From assembly GCF_011045125.1 (NCBI RefSeq), contig NZ_JAAKZF010000003.1:62001-126000 (forward strand): 64,000 nt of DNA, in the 5' to 3' direction. Below are positions 20,828-50,130 of the stretch, in pieces; position 1 is the first letter of the stretch; every line of letters starts with the position of its first letter. The position numbers and the translations under genes were made by a program. Under the pieces are notes generated by a model. It saw only the letters and a list, made by a program, of their open reading frames with translations. It ran no database searches and was not told the origin of the DNA. This DNA comes from Allomesorhizobium camelthorni (GTDB lineage: Bacteria; Pseudomonadota; Alphaproteobacteria; Rhizobiales; Rhizobiaceae).

Positions 20828-20902
20828 GGGCGATTGGCTCAGCGGGAGAGCACTCCCTTCACACGGGTGGGGTCGCAGGTTCAATCCCTGCATCGCCCAC
20901 CA
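20828..20902 (+). tRNA. tRNA-Val (CAC)
   Basis: The full cloverleaf is visible: acceptor GGGCGAT/ATCGCCC with encoded ACCA, D-stem GCTC/GAGC, anticodon loop TTCACAC (CAC, valine), T-stem GCAGG/CCTGC with TTCAATC loop. The anticodon stem CTCCC/GGGTG has one T-T mismatch (positions 28 and 42). The downstream DNA changes in character and leads into phage genes, so the 3' end of this tRNA is the likely attachment site of the prophage. Confidence 0.93.
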
Positions 20903-43103: not shown

Positions 43104-43727
43104 TCAGATCCAGTGCTGGATATAGGGGCCGAGGAGTTCGATGACATCGGCGGGAGCGAGAGGATCATCGGCCGGCGCAACCCACCATTCCTTCTCGATG
43201 ACTCCCGGAATGTTCTCGCGCTTCAGTCCAGGTTCCTGTGTCGCATCGGCCGAGAAGATGCGGACCATGCGCGCAGCGGCGTCCTTGAGATCATCGGGAA
43301 CCGTCACCCAGCCGGCGGTATAGGCAACCACGATCTTGCCGCATGGCCAGCATGCCGGATCGTCGCCGGAAAGCCGGCGAAGCATCCCCGGCGAGGCGTC
43401 GATCTCATAATCGGCGGCGACAACCGCGGTGCCGTCCTCGGTCACAGACGCGACAGATGAAACCGGAAGCCTCGAAAGGATGAGGCAATCGGCAGACCGG
43501 TCCAGGCGGAAGGTTTCGCTCAAAACCTCCTCGCGCAGCGTCGCCGGTGTCGCTCCTGCCGTAGCAACCCTGCAGATGCGCGCGATCGTCGCGGCCACCC
43601 TGGCGCCAACAATCGCCAGCTCGGCGTCGCGGCTGCTGTCCGAGACGCCGACTGCGGCGCGCAGCTCGGCGACCGAAAGCAAGTTGCGATCGGCGGCCGG
43701 CGTCGTGACTGTGAGGATGGAGCGCAC
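43104..43727 (-). CDS. Head-tail connector (gp6/HK97-type adaptor)
   Basis: This 207-residue protein has a helical N-terminal part (LLSVAELRAAVGVSDSSRDAELAIVGARVAATIARICRV). RLDRSADCLILSRLPVSSVASVTEDGTAV, GKIVVAYTAGWVTVPDDLKDAAARMVR and YIQHWI follow, all matching the phage gp6-like connector family. It forms a ring below the portal. Confidence 0.85.
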   Translation of the reverse strand: MRSILTVTTPAADRNLLSVAELRAAVGVSDSSRDAELAIVGARVAATIARICRVATAGATPATLREEVLSETFRLDRSADCLILSRLPVSSVASVTEDGTAVVAADYEIDASPGMLRRLSGDDPACWPCGKIVVAYTAGWVTVPDDLKDAAARMVRIFSADATQEPGLKRENIPGVIEKEWWVAPADDPLAPADVIELLGPYIQHWI

Positions 43728-43739
43728 CGGAGGCCCCGT

Positions 43740-44192
43740 TTATGCAGCAGCTGGTGCGGTGCGGGCAGCCATGATCTTGTCGACCATGGTGGCCTTGTTG
43801 TCGTCGGTTTCCACCGCGATCTTCTCGGCGCCGGCGAGCTCATGCAGTTGCGCGTTCGTCATCTTGGTGAGATCGGCGCGCATCGCCTCAATGGCCTTGG
43901 CGGCATCCTCCGCTGCCACGGCCGCTGCGACCTCTTCTGGCGTGCTGCGCGATGCGTAGCCTTCCGGAGGATATTTCGATGCCAGATAGCCAGCAGCCAC
44001 GTATTCGGCGACGGTGGGTCCATCGTCGCCGAGCGCAGGATCACTCTGCCTTTTCTCCGGGATGTCACCGATGAGGCCGGACCTCTTGAGACCGTCGGCC
44101 ATCGAACCGAAATCGCGCTCGTCTCCGGGCTTCAAGGGTTCGCTCTTGATGCCGTCGAACGAGCACGGGAATGCTTTCAGGACTTGGTGCAT
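43740..44192 (-). CDS. Head-region protein with C-terminal HeH/LEM-like domain
   Basis: This 150-residue protein has an N-terminal CSFDGIKSEPLKPGDERDFGSMADGL and a Lys/Glu-rich middle. The C-terminal helix-extended loop-helix (MTNAQLHELAGAEKIAVETDDNKATMVDKIMAAR) matches the short HeH/LEM motif found in phage head and Rho-like proteins. The role is unclear. Confidence 0.6.
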   Translation of the reverse strand: MHQVLKAFPCSFDGIKSEPLKPGDERDFGSMADGLKRSGLIGDIPEKRQSDPALGDDGPTVAEYVAAGYLASKYPPEGYASRSTPEEVAAAVAAEDAAKAIEAMRADLTKMTNAQLHELAGAEKIAVETDDNKATMVDKIMAARTAPAAA

Positions 44193-44203
44193 TGAACTAG
44201 CTC

Positions 44204-44563
44204 CTAGATGGTGATGACCGTAAACCGGCCCGCCTTTGCATTACCGCCCTGCGCGACGACGAACTTGACCCGGTCGTCGGCAAGGTGAAGCGGCACTTCG
44301 GTCAGCGTTGAGGCAGCGCCGGAGACAGTCGAGCCGGCACGAACCGGACGAACTGATGTGCTCGCATTGACGTTGACGCCGTTCCACACCGCCTGGCCGT
44401 CGCGCTCGGTCGTCACGGTAAAATCGGCGGTGCTCGCCAGGGCGTTGCTGGCGTCCTTGGTGTAGATGACCTCGACCAAGCGGCCGGTCAGCGGGGGCGA
44501 ATATTCCGTCGCGCCGCCGTCGGTGGCCGTCAGGATGTCGACGACTTTCCGGATGACGTGCAT
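44204..44563 (-). CDS. Hypothetical head-region protein
   Basis: This 119-residue beta-rich protein (VVDILTATDGGATEYSPPLTGRLVEVIYTKDAS, FTVTTERDGQAVWNGVNV, RVKFVVAQGGNAKAGRFTVIT) has a composition like capsid decoration proteins. No family named. Confidence 0.58.
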   Translation of the reverse strand: MHVIRKVVDILTATDGGATEYSPPLTGRLVEVIYTKDASNALASTADFTVTTERDGQAVWNGVNVNASTSVRPVRAGSTVSGAASTLTEVPLHLADDRVKFVVAQGGNAKAGRFTVITI

Positions 44564-44567
44564 CGGA

Positions 44568-44798
44568 TCAGCTCGTCGCCAGCACGCCGACGCCCTTGAG
44601 GGCGGCGAAGACGCTGTTCACCTTCGCCTTGTCGCCCGTCGTCCACGCGATTGTTGCGGTGGAGACGTCGGCGATATTGGCCGCCTGCGTCTCCGAATTC
44701 GGGACGATCTGGCCGCCGGTTTGAACAACCAGTTTCCCGCCCGCCGCAATGACTTGCGCGTCACCGCCCTGGCGCCTGTACACCTTAATGTTCGACAT
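44568..44798 (-). CDS. Small hypothetical head-region protein
   Basis: The 76-residue product (SNIKVYRRQGGDAQVIAAGGKLVVQTGGQIV...) is beta-rich. The ATG at 44798 is seven bases after an AAAGGAG site. The ATG at 44804 is too close to that site. Confidence 0.58.
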   Translation of the reverse strand: MSNIKVYRRQGGDAQVIAAGGKLVVQTGGQIVPNSETQAANIADVSTATIAWTTGDKAKVNSVFAALKGVGVLATS

Positions 44799-44800
44799 GC

Positions 44801-46165
44801 TCATGCTCCTTTGGCTTGACCGCTCACATGCGGGTTGGGGTGCTTTGTGTGGTCGTAGCGGGCCTCGATCGCCGCCGCCGAGGGCAGCTCGCGCGGCTCG
44901 AAGGTGACCTTCGTCACGTCCTCAACCGTATCGAGCTTCACCTTCACCGCGTCGTAGCCATAGAAATGGGCGTCATGCCCCTCGATCGTGTCGAGCAGCG
45001 ACGTGTTTTCCGGGACGCCGACGCGGATGCCGCGAGCCGACGCCATGCCGAGCCAGAACTCGACACAGGCCCTGCCCTTCTCGGCCTGATGTGCGTTCGG
45101 GTAGGAGAAGTCGATCCCGAAGAGATTGATTTCCTCGACGCCAATATGAACCGCGTAGGCGACGGCATATGCCGCGGTGGAATTGAAGTAGGCCTGCCCG
45201 GTCGAGTTTATGACTTCCTCGAGCGGGAACGCCACCAGGCCGGGATAGCCGTCGACGATCTGGCTCGTGTAGACTGGGCCGGGATGGCGCTTGAGCCACT
45301 CCACCATGCAAGCGATGTTTGACCCCGGGACGGCTTTCGCGCGGGCTTCCTGGATCCGGAGATCATCCATGTGGAAGATGCGGTCGCACTGGTAGAGGTC
45401 CCCCAGCGCGTTGATCGCCCAAACCTCATCGGCGAAGGCCTTACGCCCGCCGAGTCGCTTGACGTGGTCGGAATACATCTCCAGCGAGGGGCCGAGGCCC
45501 AGGATCACAACGCGGCGTGGCGCGCCCTTCTTGTCTGGCTGCATCTCGGCCGACGCCGGCCTGACGCCATCCGCGACCCGGGCGGCCGTCACGACGATCG
45601 TGCGGCCTTCAACGTCAGGCTCGACCTCGGACTGCGGTCCGATCTGACCGTACCAGCCGGTGATTTCGTACCCAGCGCTTTCCAGAAGGCCCTTGAATTC
45701 GTCGCGGGTGTAGTGGCGGTGATGGAACTTAATCCTGCCACCATGCGGGAAGACGGCTTCGTTGGGCACACTGGCGACCAGGACGGGAGCCGCAACGCTG
45801 AGCGCCTTCAGCATAGGAAGCGGGTCTTCGAGGTGTTCGATCGTCTCGAAACACACCGCGGCATCGAACGCATCGCGCTCGTATCCGGCAACTTCCATGA
45901 TATCGCCGGCGCAAAGTACGACCCGATATCGATGGAAATGCGTCTTGCCGTAATCGACCGCGCCCTGGCATCGATCTATGCCGATGACCGTGTGGCCGGC
46001 ATCGGCAAGCAGTGCCGAGCCGTAGCCGATACCACATGCGAGATCGACGACGCGCTTCTGTTCACCGAGCAGATTTGCTGCAAATTCGTACCGCGCGACG
46101 TGATCGCGGCGGATTCCTTCGATCGAGGGCGCGACCTGGCGCTCCCCGTTGGCGAGATCAGTCAT
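44801..46165 (-). CDS. SAM methyltransferase fused to MAF/DUF115-like glycosyltransferase-type domain
   Basis: The protein has 454 residues. The N-terminal class I methyltransferase covers about 1-200: motif I VVDLACGIGYGSALLADAG (residues 39-57), IGIDRCQGAVDYG, FDAAVCFETIEHLEDPLPML. From about 215 comes a second domain with GLGPSL (223-228), WAINALGDLYQCDRIFHMDD, STAAYAVAYAVHIGVEEINLFGIDFSYPNAH (GIDFSY at 350-355) and DAHFYGYDAVKV. This is the pattern of DUF115/motility-associated-factor proteins, some of which attach nonulosonic sugars to flagellin. It lies in the head gene cluster, so it may modify virion proteins. It is not a DNA methyltransferase by motif. Combination noted as unusual. 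Confidence 0.75.
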   Translation of the reverse strand: MTDLANGERQVAPSIEGIRRDHVARYEFAANLLGEQKRVVDLACGIGYGSALLADAGHTVIGIDRCQGAVDYGKTHFHRYRVVLCAGDIMEVAGYERDAFDAAVCFETIEHLEDPLPMLKALSVAAPVLVASVPNEAVFPHGGRIKFHHRHYTRDEFKGLLESAGYEITGWYGQIGPQSEVEPDVEGRTIVVTAARVADGVRPASAEMQPDKKGAPRRVVILGLGPSLEMYSDHVKRLGGRKAFADEVWAINALGDLYQCDRIFHMDDLRIQEARAKAVPGSNIACMVEWLKRHPGPVYTSQIVDGYPGLVAFPLEEVINSTGQAYFNSTAAYAVAYAVHIGVEEINLFGIDFSYPNAHQAEKGRACVEFWLGMASARGIRVGVPENTSLLDTIEGHDAHFYGYDAVKVKLDTVEDVTKVTFEPRELPSAAAIEARYDHTKHPNPHVSGQAKGA

Positions 46166-46242
46166 TGCCGGAGATTTCCTGTTGTCGGACAGGGTTAAGG
46201 AGACGCGCCGAGCGGACCCCGGCGCGTTCAAAGTTGTATCAA

Positions 46243-46671
46243 TCAGGTGGTCGGGCGCCGATGGGGGCGGCCGCGGATCACGTTGACGCCGATCGGCGTT
46301 CCGGCGGTCACTGTCGATGACACCTTGGCCTTGATGTAGCGCTTGGTTCCGATATAGCCGACGCGCTTCGAGACGTTCTTGGTCGTGCCGGATGTACGGG
46401 TAGCAGCGGCGGCAAGGCCGGCATCCGCCTCCGTGCCGAGCAGATCGGCATCGGCTACGCTGGTGAACGTGCCGGTCGCGGTGTCGCACTCGGTGATGAG
46501 CGCAGTGAAAACCGCATTCGTCGCCGTGACGGTGCCGTAGGAGATTTCGACCTCAGCGGCATCATAGCCCTGCAGGTCGATGGCGCCGGACGTCTTTCCG
46601 GTACCCGTGGTGCCGATCGCCACCGGCGACACGGCACGGATAATGTTGATGTTGTTGTGGAGATCGCGCAT
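46243..46671 (-). CDS. Hypothetical capsid-neighbour protein (possible decoration protein)
   Basis: This 142-residue Thr/Ala-rich, beta-rich protein (NINIIRAVSPVAIGTTGTGKTSGAIDLQGYDAAEVEISYGTV, KRVGYIGTKRYIKAKVSS) is encoded immediately downstream of the major capsid gene. Position and composition suggest a head surface protein. No family named. Confidence 0.6.
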   Translation of the reverse strand: MRDLHNNINIIRAVSPVAIGTTGTGKTSGAIDLQGYDAAEVEISYGTVTATNAVFTALITECDTATGTFTSVADADLLGTEADAGLAAAATRTSGTTKNVSKRVGYIGTKRYIKAKVSSTVTAGTPIGVNVIRGRPHRRPTT

Positions 46672-46750
46672 TGGATCGCTCCGTGAATTCGGGGTTACGA
46701 AAGCCGCGCCTGAGTGGCGCGGCGATGGTTCATCCTTCGTTGACCAAAGA

Positions 46751-48133
46751 TCAGGCGGAGATCTTCTGCAGCTTGATCGCCTCGAAGTTGGTGACGTCGC
46801 CGCCAACGCGCCGGCGGGTGTAGTACCCGACGAACGGCTTCGCGGTGTACGGGTCGACCAGGACCGAGATACCCATGCGATCGACGATGGTGTAGCCGGC
46901 CTTGAAGTCGCCGAACGCGATAGACAGCGTGCCGGCGTCGACCGCGACCATATCCTCAGCCTCGCGCACGGCGTAGCCGAGCAGAAGCGAAGGCTGCCCC
47001 ACCTGGTTGTTCGGGCGCCACAGATACTGGCCGTTGCCGTCCTTCAGGAGCATCACGGCGCCGACCGTGGTGCGCTTCATCAGGAAGTTGGCGTTGGCCT
47101 TGTAGAAGCCCTTCAAAGCCGCGGTCAGATTGATAAGACCGTCGAACGTTACCGCCGTGGCGGCTCCGGAGACGACCTGCTCGATTTGGCCGCGGGAGGT
47201 ACCGCTGGCATAGGTCAGAAAGCCGCGAGGCTTGCCGACCCCATTGCCGGCGACGAAGGCGGTCGCCTCGGTGCGACCGAATTTCTCGCCGATTTTGCGA
47301 CCCAGCCAGGCGCCGACATCGATGCCGGCGTCTTCGACGAACTTCTGCGTCGCCTTCGGAAAGGCATACATCTCATGGGCGACGATGGTCTGCTTGCCGA
47401 CCTGAGGCGTGTCGGTCTTCGGCCGGTCGGCAGTTTCGCCGGCCCAGCTCGCACCGGCTTCATCCTCGTCGATCGGGATTTCGAGTTCGCTTGTCGAGAT
47501 CGTCTCGATGGTGGCGATCTCGCGAAGCGGCGAAGATTCCCTGACGATCATCATGGTGCGGGAAGACACCTTGGGGACCAGCAGGTAACCGCCGTCGGGA
47601 TCGGAGCCGACAGACATGTCCTTACGCTCTTCCGGCGAGAGACCGTCTTCGCCCTGGCGGTTCGAAATGACGCGATTGAACGCCGCTTCGTAGCCTTTGA
47701 ACTCGTCGACGTTCACCGCGTCGTCGGGCATGCGGACGCCGCTTTTCAGCGTCTTGTGAAGCGCCGACTTGATCTCGGCGAACTCGCGGGCCTGCTTGAA
47801 CTCGTCATCGCCGCCGCCACCACCATTCAAACGGGCGCGGTTGAGCTTCTTCTCGAGCTCGTCCATGCGGTCCTGGGCGGCCTTGATCGACTCGTCCTGG
47901 ATCTTCTTGACCGCAGCTTCGATGGCGGCATGCTTCTCGGTGACGCCGGTCGTCAGCGCCTCGAGGTCCTTCTTGAGCTGGGTGCCTTCGCCGGCGTTCT
48001 TGCCGGCCTTCTCGGCAAGGTCACGGACCTCCTTGAGGTCCTTTTCCATAGAGGTTTTCAGGCCGGTGACATCTTCACCGAACTTCTTCACCTCGCGCTG
48101 GACATCGTCCAGCACGTCTTTGATCTCAGGCAT
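46751..48133 (-). CDS. HK97-family major capsid protein
   Basis: The protein has 460 residues. The N-terminal 110 residues are a coiled-coil scaffold-like delta domain (LDDVQREVKKFGEDVTGLKTSMEKDLKEVRDLAEKAGKN). The HK97 fold core follows: SRTMMIVRESSPLREIATIETIST, the PKATQKFVEDAGIDVGAWLGRKIGEKFGRTEATAFVAGNG helix region, TTVGAVMLLKDGNGQYLWRP and FGDFKAGYTIVDRMGISVLVDPYTA. The delta domain would be cut off by the protease encoded next. Confidence 0.93.
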   Translation of the reverse strand: MPEIKDVLDDVQREVKKFGEDVTGLKTSMEKDLKEVRDLAEKAGKNAGEGTQLKKDLEALTTGVTEKHAAIEAAVKKIQDESIKAAQDRMDELEKKLNRARLNGGGGGDDEFKQAREFAEIKSALHKTLKSGVRMPDDAVNVDEFKGYEAAFNRVISNRQGEDGLSPEERKDMSVGSDPDGGYLLVPKVSSRTMMIVRESSPLREIATIETISTSELEIPIDEDEAGASWAGETADRPKTDTPQVGKQTIVAHEMYAFPKATQKFVEDAGIDVGAWLGRKIGEKFGRTEATAFVAGNGVGKPRGFLTYASGTSRGQIEQVVSGAATAVTFDGLINLTAALKGFYKANANFLMKRTTVGAVMLLKDGNGQYLWRPNNQVGQPSLLLGYAVREAEDMVAVDAGTLSIAFGDFKAGYTIVDRMGISVLVDPYTAKPFVGYYTRRRVGGDVTNFEAIKLQKISA

Positions 48134-48143
48134 TGAAGCCTCC

Positions 48144-48851
48144 TTAGCGGTTGGGGATTATGAGCTTGCGGGTCGAGCGGATGCTCTCCAGCAAGCCGGC
48201 TGCTACGTCTTGATCGTCCCCAGCCTCGCGCCGTACGACCTTCTTGAAACGGCTCACGAAATCGCGAACCGTCTTCTTCGACCATGCAGGACCGCCTGCC
48301 TCGCGCAGGAAATCCTCAAAGTCGGAGATGGTGTTAAGCGCATCGATGTCGGCGGATTTCACCGCGCCAACGACCGCCTTGTCATTTGCTGGGAACGTCA
48401 CGATGCTGAGTTCGCGGAGTTCGACCTCATGCAGTGTGCGAGTCGGATCGGTCGGTTTCGTCCCGACCGTGAATTTCTTGGCACGGTAGCCGATGGAAAG
48501 ACCATCGAGCGACCCGGCCTTCATGCCTTCATAGATCAGCTGGCCGCGATCGGTGCTGAGCGCGAACAGTTCGCCCTCGACCTTCAAACCCTTGGTGTTC
48601 TCCTCCATTGAGGTCCACTTCCCAACCGGCAGCATGTCGTCGACGGGCCCGAAGAAACCGCCATGCTGGAGCAACATCGGCGGCAGCTTGCCCTTGCTCT
48701 CCCAGGTACGGAGGGATTCCTTGAAGGCGCCGCGTTCGATGACGTCGCCGTAGCTGTCGACATTGCCGAAGATGGCTCCGTAGCCGGAGAAGGTGCCGTC
48801 CTTCGCTCCGGTGGCAAACTTGAACTCGAAGTCGGCCTGATACCTATCCAT
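48144..48851 (-). CDS. HK97-family prohead protease
   Basis: The protein has 235 residues. Catalytic His63 lies in MLLQHGG and Ser119 in DGLSIGYRA, with the preceding GYGAIFGNVDSYGDVIERGAF fold start. It cleaves the capsid delta domain during maturation. Its start overlaps the portal gene end by eight bases. Confidence 0.93.
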   Translation of the reverse strand: MDRYQADFEFKFATGAKDGTFSGYGAIFGNVDSYGDVIERGAFKESLRTWESKGKLPPMLLQHGGFFGPVDDMLPVGKWTSMEENTKGLKVEGELFALSTDRGQLIYEGMKAGSLDGLSIGYRAKKFTVGTKPTDPTRTLHEVELRELSIVTFPANDKAVVGAVKSADIDALNTISDFEDFLREAGGPAWSKKTVRDFVSRFKKVVRREAGDDQDVAAGLLESIRSTRKLIIPNR

Positions 48852-50130
48852 CGGCGGGCTCCTTGTTGGCTGCCGGCTGTTTCGTGGGTCGGGGGTAACC
48901 GTCATCGTCGATCGGCGTGACGTTGACCGGCACGTAAAGGCGGTTGCCGCCCGGCAGAGGCGGCATTTCATCGAAGCCGCGGACCTCGTCGGGCGTCACC
49001 CATCCCGGGTTGCCGCCTCCGCCAAGGGCAACCTTGAAGTATTCTGCTTTGTCCTTCATGGCCGGGCTGAGGAAGGCCTGTTCCGTGAAAGCGAGGTAGT
49101 ATCCGGCTTTCCGCTCCTGGGGCGTGAGCAGCCACCGCTTTGCGGATGAAGCCACTCGGTCATGCCAAGGCCTGACTGTGTGCACGAGATGCGCCAGGAA
49201 GAGCTGCTCGGCCGACGCGTAGGTTGGTGCCTTGTCGCCGGAGAAGCCGACCATGATCGGCATCACGCACATCGCGCGGCAGATTTCCTCGACCTGAAAC
49301 TGCCGGACCTCGATGTGCTGAGAGTCGACGCCCGACATGGCAAGCGGCTGCCACGTCAGTCCGTTGTCCAGAACCGCGGTGCGGAACTTGTTGGCGAGGC
49401 CGACCTGATTCTGCGCCCACTGCTCTTTCAGCCGTGCCCTGGCTGGCCCTTTCAGCTCCTTCTCGGTCGTCAGGATACCGCCCGGCTGGGCGCCGTTGGC
49501 GTGAAGCCGGGAATGGGTCTCCTCGGTCGCGATCGAAAGGCCGATGGCCTCGCGCATCAGCTTGATGGCGTCCATGCCAACACTGCCGTTCCATGACGGC
49601 CCGCGGATATGCCAGATTTCGTCGGCCTCGAAGGTCGAGTAGGTGTTGTCGAAGAGCCTGACCCGGTAAGTCAGCCGGCCGTCGCGCTGAAGTTGCGGCG
49701 TGGCACCATCAGGATCGAGGGGGATAAGCTCATTGATTTGCCCCCTGACGCGCCCGATGTAGGAATAGTGGTTGAAGGTCAGCGCAAGGTGCAGGCCGAT
49801 CGTCTCGAAATATTCGAGACCGCTCTGCCATTGGTTCGGAGCATCTTCAACCACGCTGTAAAGCGGATGATCGCGATCCTCCTGCCTTGTCGTCGAGTTG
49901 GGATCTCGGCGGTACACCTTGCGCGGCACCATGAGCGCCTCGGCGATGCGGCGGGCGCACGCAACTACCGTCGTGCACTGGAGCGCGGTCTTCCAATTCA
50001 CAGTGGCTCCGGATTTCGCCGGACCGCCGCCAAATAGACCGGCCCAGATCGCCTCGACATCGCCTATCGTGGTCGAGTTCTCGGCCTTGATCTGCAGGCC
50101 TTCCGCGATCGCGCCGAACAATCCCGACAT
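48844..50130 (-). CDS. HK97-family portal protein
   Basis: The protein has 428 residues. Signature blocks: NWKTALQCTTVVACARRIAEALMVPRKVYRR, EADEIWHIRGPSWNG, GIQLARTA-like ALQLATEE region LSIATEETHSRLHANGAQPGGIL, FRTAVLDNGLTWQPLAMSGVDSQHIEVRQFQVEEICRAMCVMPIMVG, all typical of phage portal proteins of the HK97 family. It forms the dodecameric DNA channel. The stop and start overlap the neighbouring genes. Confidence 0.93.
   Translation of the reverse strand: MSGLFGAIAEGLQIKAENSTTIGDVEAIWAGLFGGGPAKSGATVNWKTALQCTTVVACARRIAEALMVPRKVYRRDPNSTTRQEDRDHPLYSVVEDAPNQWQSGLEYFETIGLHLALTFNHYSYIGRVRGQINELIPLDPDGATPQLQRDGRLTYRVRLFDNTYSTFEADEIWHIRGPSWNGSVGMDAIKLMREAIGLSIATEETHSRLHANGAQPGGILTTEKELKGPARARLKEQWAQNQVGLANKFRTAVLDNGLTWQPLAMSGVDSQHIEVRQFQVEEICRAMCVMPIMVGFSGDKAPTYASAEQLFLAHLVHTVRPWHDRVASSAKRWLLTPQERKAGYYLAFTEQAFLSPAMKDKAEYFKVALGGGGNPGWVTPDEVRGFDEMPPLPGGNRLYVPVNVTPIDDDGYPRPTKQPAANKEPADG

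Follow-up and report, generated by a model that had tools for sequence, protein, structure and literature searches.

One important question raised by this locus is why a methyltransferase joined to a domain of the Maf/DUF115 kind should be encoded in the middle of the head genes of a Mesorhizobium-type prophage, and what such a protein would modify. The gene occupies positions 44801-46165 of the minus strand of the window (the whole stretch of 64,000 nucleotides of Allomesorhizobium camelthorni DNA that was analysed), starts with an ATG at 46165 and encodes 454 amino acids plus the stop. This stop codon (TGA, 44803-44801) overlaps the ATG of the downstream gene (44804-44802) in the sequence ATGA.

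The neighbouring genes on the same strand were assigned through PHROG matches. Upstream are the genes for the portal protein (48844-50130; phrog_12, E 1.6e-83), the head maturation protease (48144-48857; phrog_80, E 7.6e-49), the HK97-type major capsid protein (46751-48133; phrog_10, E 3.6e-76) and a capsid-cementing-type protein of 142 amino acids (46243-46671; phrog_5707, function not annotated, E 1.8e-29). Downstream follow the small gene whose start overlaps the fusion-gene stop (44568-44804; phrog_12102, function not annotated, E 2.5e-13), a gene without match, a phrog_2101 gene and a head-tail connector-type gene (43104-43727), so named because reference phages are annotated in this way at homologous positions. 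A tblastn search detected relatives of the cementing-type protein in 6 of 50,697 phage records, from 4 phages. Their genes sit immediately behind that of the major capsid protein, and the one in Streptomyces phage Chymera is annotated as 'capsid cementing protein'. No promoter- or terminator-like site was found on the minus strand within positions 43600-48300, and the fusion gene is most likely part of the head operon, in agreement with the same-strand setting among capsid and connector genes pointed out in a preliminary description of this DNA. The second domain is missing from reference phages that share this head block. A tRNA-Val gene was located at 20828-20902, left of the tail genes.

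Two domains in one protein

The N-terminal part, about residues 1-200 (45566-46165, minus strand), was identified as a class I SAM methyltransferase by the Pfam scan, the model of the whole protein and Foldseek. The families Methyltransf_11 (46.6 bits, cut-off 21.2, residues 40-121) and Methyltransf_23 (43.3 bits, cut-off 27, residues 27-168) matched above their cut-offs, and the glycine-rich motif I (DLACGIGYG, from residue 41) and the acidic residue after strand 2 were present. When the window protein was aligned with 39 full-length relatives, G45, G47 and D64 were each conserved in 39 of 40 sequences and H111 in all 40. The best Foldseek matches of this domain were also methyltransferases (3l8d, E 1.8e-10; UbiG 5dpm, E 4.8e-10). 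A DNA methyltransferase was rejected, since the best matches are small-molecule methyltransferases of the UbiG type. The full-length model reached a pTM of only 0.56, and the arrangement of the two domains was therefore left uninterpreted.

The second domain spans residues 216-454 (44804-45520, minus strand), with a core that extends to about residue 405, and carries the stretches GLGPSL (from residue 223) and GIDFSY (from residue 350) on which the preliminary description had based a MAF/DUF115 assignment. An AlphaFold model of residues 211-454, built with 65 sequences, had a mean pLDDT of 91.4. Its top match in VIA-align 2 was the Maf flagellin glycosyltransferase 5mu5 (Z 11.8, 159 residues, rmsd 3.2 A), and high scores were also obtained with the MptE-type enzyme of M. 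jannaschii (8sd5_B, Z 10.4), the GT42 sialyltransferases CstII and CstI (Z 9.3-10.4; CstII 2x63, Z 10.4, 157 residues, rmsd 3.4) and the Pasteurella sialyltransferase 9c08 (Z 9.4), the human sialyltransferases reaching a Z of about 7. The two-domain reading and the assignment of residues 215-454 to this fold gain structural support from these matches, and the second domain is predicted by the model to belong to the Maf/GT42/MptE fold group. Fold alone gives no function here, because MptE, a pyrophosphokinase, scores equal to CstII, and SteA (Z 9.4) and thiamin pyrophosphokinase (Z 9.3) come close. Foldseek ranked CstII and CstI entries in places 1-13 (best E 7.7e-5), but these superpositions were poor, with a TM of about 0.4 (0.41 for the match at E 7.7e-5) and an rmsd of about 16.

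A profile of the 65 second-domain members retrieved 11 PDB sequences at E up to 10; nine of these are GT42 sialyltransferases, the best with E 0.065. Among Pfam families, only PF01973 (MptE-like, DUF115) appeared in these members, with weak matches in 42 of 65 (limit E 0.1); in the window protein it stays below threshold (23.4 bits, gathering cut-off 34.6). PF06002 (CST-I) was absent among the Pfam families matched by the fusion protein up to E 1, and with a limit of E 0.1 the second domain had no PHROG match. In profile comparisons, three alphaproteobacterial single-domain PF01973 proteins gave 89.5% over 180 columns and eight Maf proteins 28.8% over just 30 columns. Residues W249, N252, G350 and D352 are invariant in the 65 sequences, and those of the nucleotide loop (G223, G225, P226, S227) together with the polar N252, D352 and T330 are conserved in 60-65 of them. 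H359, which in the 30-column hhalign block (probability 29%) lies opposite a His of the Maf stretch NIHHSK, is present in 58 sequences and missing in 7. Taken as sequence, the domain leans toward the glycosyltransferase side, without proof.

Each of the three enzyme groups also differs from the window protein. The Maf flagellin glycosyltransferases (Magnetospirillum 5mu5; Clostridium Maf, PMC11339370) share the fold of their central domain (Z 11.8), whereas they have three domains and act on flagellin; the fusion protein has a methyltransferase in place of the N-terminal part and is encoded in a phage head operon, and neither the Pfam scan nor the secondary structure revealed anything like the C-terminal helical domain of Maf, so that the three-domain layout is absent. 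With CstI and CstII the second domain shares the fold and the motif stretches GxGPSL and YFN...GxDF, but it fails the Pfam CST-I family, the resemblance being one of fold and motif stretches. The archaeal MptE and other PF01973 proteins have a like fold (Z 10.4) and a sub-threshold Pfam match, and they belong to folate metabolism, whereas the context here is one of capsid genes.

Relatives, gene order and the methyltransferase partner

The second domain is encoded by at least 570 stretches of viral contigs (570 of the 600 pattern matches listed), of which 80 loci were kept; on this count the gene was no longer regarded as a unique oddity. An earlier search of viral contigs for close relatives had yielded 18 loci. 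A search with one genome per species gave 16 loci, assigned to Mesorhizobium, other Hyphomicrobiales, Caulobacterales, Betaproteobacteria, Desulfuromonadales, an armatimonadote, a planctomycete and a Marinilabiliales bin, although 11 of the 16 are metagenome bins, so that their hosts are uncertain. Going by record titles, the carriers from isolates include Mesorhizobium neociceri CCANP35 and M. alhagi CCNWXJ12-2, which have the fusion, and M. norvegicum 10.2.2, Pseudolabrys sp. Root1462 and Variovorax sp. WS11, which have the second domain alone. Among 61 genomes, the second domain was matched only in the window's own and in one of the same genus (G002, on a Mesorhizobium alhagi contig), the remaining listed matches stopping at or before residue 206. 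Of the 50,697 records of isolated phages, three had partial matches and none a match over 80% of the query. Microcystis phage Mvi-Yong1342-1 encodes the second domain alone (L034:5680-6483, E 1e-25), just before the terminase genes, in a gene annotated as 'type 11 methyltransferase', yet without a Pfam methyltransferase match.

Gene order was analysed in the 110 best-scoring loci, which include near-copies (L020/L038, from the same contig; L082/L085; L110/L111) and many fragments of uncultured phages; loci with short flanks were dropped before each count, which left 65, 90, 61 and 58 of the 110 eligible. A major capsid gene lay upstream of the second domain in all 65 loci with 3.5 kb upstream, a cementing-type gene in 86 of the 90 with 1.5 kb upstream, a connector-type gene in 53 of the 61 with 3 kb downstream and a protease gene in 47 of the 58 with 5 kb. 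The gene cluster of the window's connector-type gene was present downstream in 75 of the 110 loci. The four loci that miss a cementing-type gene are distant relatives (L014, L015, L016 and L017) and have instead another Ser/Thr-rich gene of 200 amino acids, which precedes the second domain together with a basic gene of 81 amino acids. L014 and L018 each contain two copies of the second domain, and in another locus a gene of 223 amino acids downstream of it (L006:2803-3471) appeared glycosyltransferase-like by eye, with no Pfam match. The extra N-terminal part of L059 was attributed to a wrong ORF start, as it overlaps the cementing gene of that locus in another frame.

A methyltransferase of the window's family was found in the same frame as the second domain in 49 of the 110 loci, so the fusion is widely distributed among uncultured phages, and as a separate nearby gene in four (L039, L043, L060, L094). 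It was undetected in 57 loci, four of which are truncated by the end of the contig. In one locus the fusion is reversed (L053:7803-9338), with the second domain at residues 68-298 and the methyltransferase at 312-419. On a tree of 96 second domains, presence and absence of the methyltransferase change at least 22 times, and well-supported branches require the N-terminal fusion to have changed at least six times. Judged by these sequences, the methyltransferase behaves as an optional add-on to the second domain. The closest methyltransferase in the phage collection belongs to phage ct7QV12 (E 3.3e-46), where it lies before the terminase, near a gene annotated as 'glycosyltransferase tibC' (no Pfam match) and a DegT/DnrJ/EryC1 aminotransferase (244.7 bits; L035:2165-6581), surroundings that their predicted products mark as sugar-related. 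Of the chromosomal relatives of the methyltransferase, four were examined, and none contained a glycosyltransferase domain.

The cementing protein and its Ser/Thr loop

The position of the cementing-type gene directly upstream raises the question of whether its product is linked to the second domain in evolution. As a control without direct selection for the second domain, scans were run with alignments of cementing proteins as seeds. The second domain was found in none of the 66 eligible loci (of 80) when a Bradyrhizobium phage protein was placed first (scan A7), in all 59 eligible loci (of 80) with the window's protein first (A8) and in 35 of 61 (of 80) with a short-loop protein first (A9); scan A8 is expected to favour phages with the second domain, and A9 is the fairer sample. 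These overlapping scans were pooled with four reference phages into 158 distinct cementing sequences, 75 with and 83 without the second domain. Methyltransferases of the window's family lay near 44 of the 75 and none of the 83. In these cementing-seeded scans, this methyltransferase family occurs exclusively beside the second domain or fused to it.

The two groups of cementing proteins also differ in an inserted loop. The segment before GYxGxKRY measures 22-26 residues in 95 of 118 cases with the second domain (13-15 in nine, unparsed in 14) versus 16-17 residues in 53 of 56 without it (unparsed in three). A loop motif, R[TVA][SDA][GNDA], is present in 69 of the 75 distinct sequences with the second domain and missing in 6, versus none of the 83 without. 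Those with the second domain are richer in Ser+Thr (19.8% vs 14.6%) and poorer in Asp+Glu (7.1% vs 12.2%). In the window protein the loop contains RTSGTTKN (residues 92-99; 46375-46398, minus strand; alignment A7), a candidate acceptor site. On a cementing tree of 101 rows (11 short-loop sequences, 45 others with the second domain picked at random, and the first 45 in a set of 56 that lack it), computed from an alignment that kept the loop columns, the status of the second domain changes once (SH-aLRT 92). The link between domain and loop is one deep, stable pairing, a single evolutionary contrast and not repeated co-evolution. By this pairing the second domain is seen to stay with one cementing clade, and the Ser/Thr loop is taken as a candidate acceptor and nothing further; short-loop cementing proteins that co-occur with the second domain (e.g. 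in L074 and L348) indicate that the loop is dispensable in some phages.

Donor sugar, proposed mechanism and rival readings

The preliminary description had brought in nonulosonic acids, with which some MAF/DUF115 enzymes glycosylate flagellin. These are not indicated here, and no sialic acid genes were found near the fusion gene; the sole hint of a donor is Kdo, from one phage. In that phage (L099) the genes for the capsid and cementing proteins are followed by the fusion gene, KdsA, a small gene and the connector-type gene, and the KdsA gene (L099:2875-3678) codes for a Kdo-8-phosphate synthase (TIGR01362, 395.8 bits against an equivalog cut-off of 314). KdsA accompanies the close family of the second domain in this locus only. 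As regular partners, both a Kdo synthase (1 of 28 virus records) and a CMP-sugar synthetase (0 of 28, all possibly fragments) were rejected. The host genome of the window carries KdsA and KdsB, and a PF02348 search of it found no second clear CMP-sugar synthetase, the runner-up (23.8 bits) being GlmU-like by eye. A Clostridium Maf enzyme is reported to attach Kdo to Ser/Thr residues of flagellin in E. coli, with CMP-Kdo as donor (PMC11339370). Because of the KdsA gene of L099, the host KdsA and KdsB with no second clear synthetase and the reported use of CMP-Kdo by Maf, Kdo is the best single guess for the donor of a transferase, if still a doubtful one.

Weak second-domain matches (E 2e-5 to 2e-4) were also seen in 5 of 33 other KdsA contigs, several of which look near-identical. 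In a T4-like-looking contig (L162:4648-8530; also L157, L161, L163 and L178), genes for a weak second-domain relative, PTPS, KdsA, a 232-amino-acid protein without Pfam match and UvdE lie in a row. The KdsA link outside L099 was set aside as a lead, as these matches fell below threshold in the larger search and the PTPS gene is also present.

We infer the activity, donor, acceptor, order of steps and benefit as follows. The C-terminal domain would be a glycosyltransferase of the Maf/GT42 type using a CMP-activated sugar of the host, plausibly CMP-Kdo, and would transfer it to Ser or Thr of the cementing-type protein, whose gene is the next one upstream, with the loop RTSGTTKN as the probable site; the major capsid protein is an alternative acceptor. 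The N-terminal methyltransferase would then O-methylate the transferred sugar, which would be left bare in phages without this domain. The benefit may lie in shielding or stabilising the shell, or in binding surfaces. To this reading, a CMP-sugar transferase that O-glycosylates the cementing protein and a methyltransferase that caps the sugar, we give a probability of about 0.45. Counted against it, besides the ambiguity of the fold, the poor Foldseek superpositions and the single contrast behind the loop link, were the missed PF01973 cut-off, the absence of H359 from 7 of 65 members, the Maf profile match of 30 columns at 29%, the reference phages that have the same head block and do without the second domain, the occurrence of KdsA in a single locus, the lack of a CMP-sugar synthetase in the 28 virus records and the four chromosomal methyltransferase relatives with no glycosyltransferase domain. 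The suggestion that the phage decorates its own virion gained independent support from the cementing-protein pairing; it is still putative, and the interpretation is on the whole partly supported. On the unlikely side is a wider version, according to which a large clade of uncultured phages would have glycosylation built into head assembly, with methyl-capped Kdo on the cementing Ser/Thr loop, attached by a Maf/GT42-type enzyme whose gene is the second after that of the capsid, and a KdsA of their own, as in L099, where the supply of the host is outrun.

A structural gene would show the same tight linkage to one cementing clade as the second domain does in scan A8 (59 of 59 loci), and the methyltransferase is present in some phages and absent from others, with 22 changes on the tree; both would suit a second domain that is a non-catalytic assembly or structural factor, with a nucleotide-sugar fold as scaffold, while the methyltransferase acts directly on capsid side chains. 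We consider this unlikely, as the nucleotide loop and the polar residues are kept in 60-65 of 65 sequences, as in an active enzyme. The same chemistry might otherwise act on a glycan of the host surface, LPS or capsule, in the lysogen or at a late stage of infection, with the head operon serving just for timing; a late change to a host surface glycan had also been suggested in the preliminary description. An LPS glycosyltransferase is reported in a Sinorhizobium prophage (PMC5537653), and marine viral genomes with KdsA and NeuA have been discussed in terms of LPS synthesis (PMC5332604). However, a fixed slot between cementing and connector genes, the ATGA overlap in a region free of promoter- or terminator-like sites and co-inheritance with a capsid protein clade would not be expected for such a target, which makes it distinctly unlikely. 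It is quite improbable that the second domain is instead an MptE-like or other nucleotide-dependent enzyme (a pyrophosphokinase or pterin enzyme): 8sd5_B equals CstII in Z, PF01973 is the sole Pfam family of the members and the weak relative in the L162-type contigs adjoins a PTPS (6-pyruvoyl tetrahydropterin synthase) gene, though KdsA comes next, but the best structural match is Maf, the best sequence matches are GT42 enzymes, and a pterin enzyme explains neither the cementing-protein tie nor the KdsA of L099. That the fusion gene is a passenger (moron) with no particular relation to the capsid, as its absence from reference phages with the same block might suggest, is very improbable, given that neither an independent gain nor an independent loss turned up between the two sampled cementing clades.

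The preliminary description could match the arrangement to no described system. This holds in part: the arrangement differs, but many uncultured phages carry the fusion, and virion glycosylation has been described in mycobacteriophages. Phages Che8, Corndog and Myrna are reported to modify capsid and tail proteins with glycosyltransferases of their own (PMC12363180), and in phage Maravista such genes are placed near the 3' end of the genome (PMC11256854), whereas the gene studied here lies inside the head block; the available descriptions of these systems mention no fused methyltransferase. What sets the present system apart from mycobacteriophage virion glycosylation, by description only, is its enzyme group, its location within the head operon, the fusion with a methyltransferase and the cementing tie. 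An enzymatic parallel is Maf, reported as a protein O-glycosyltransferase that acts on Ser/Thr with CMP-sugars and accepts Kdo (PMC11339370). No publication on this gene was found in the open-licence literature, covered mostly by titles and the beginnings of abstracts, which is no proof of absence.

If the CMP-sugar transferase mechanism is true, it would describe a protein O-glycosylation system of phage heads in which the enzyme, the acceptor protein, a candidate site and the donor sugar are all named, and it would place a Maf/GT42-type protein glycosyltransferase in phages and explain a widespread gene without assigned function. It would also provide a compact tool for adding sugars to virus-like particles and bear on why some phages glycosylate their shells. 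Should the donor indeed be Kdo, the shell would carry a sugar of the bacterial surface, the same core sugar that the host has in its LPS.
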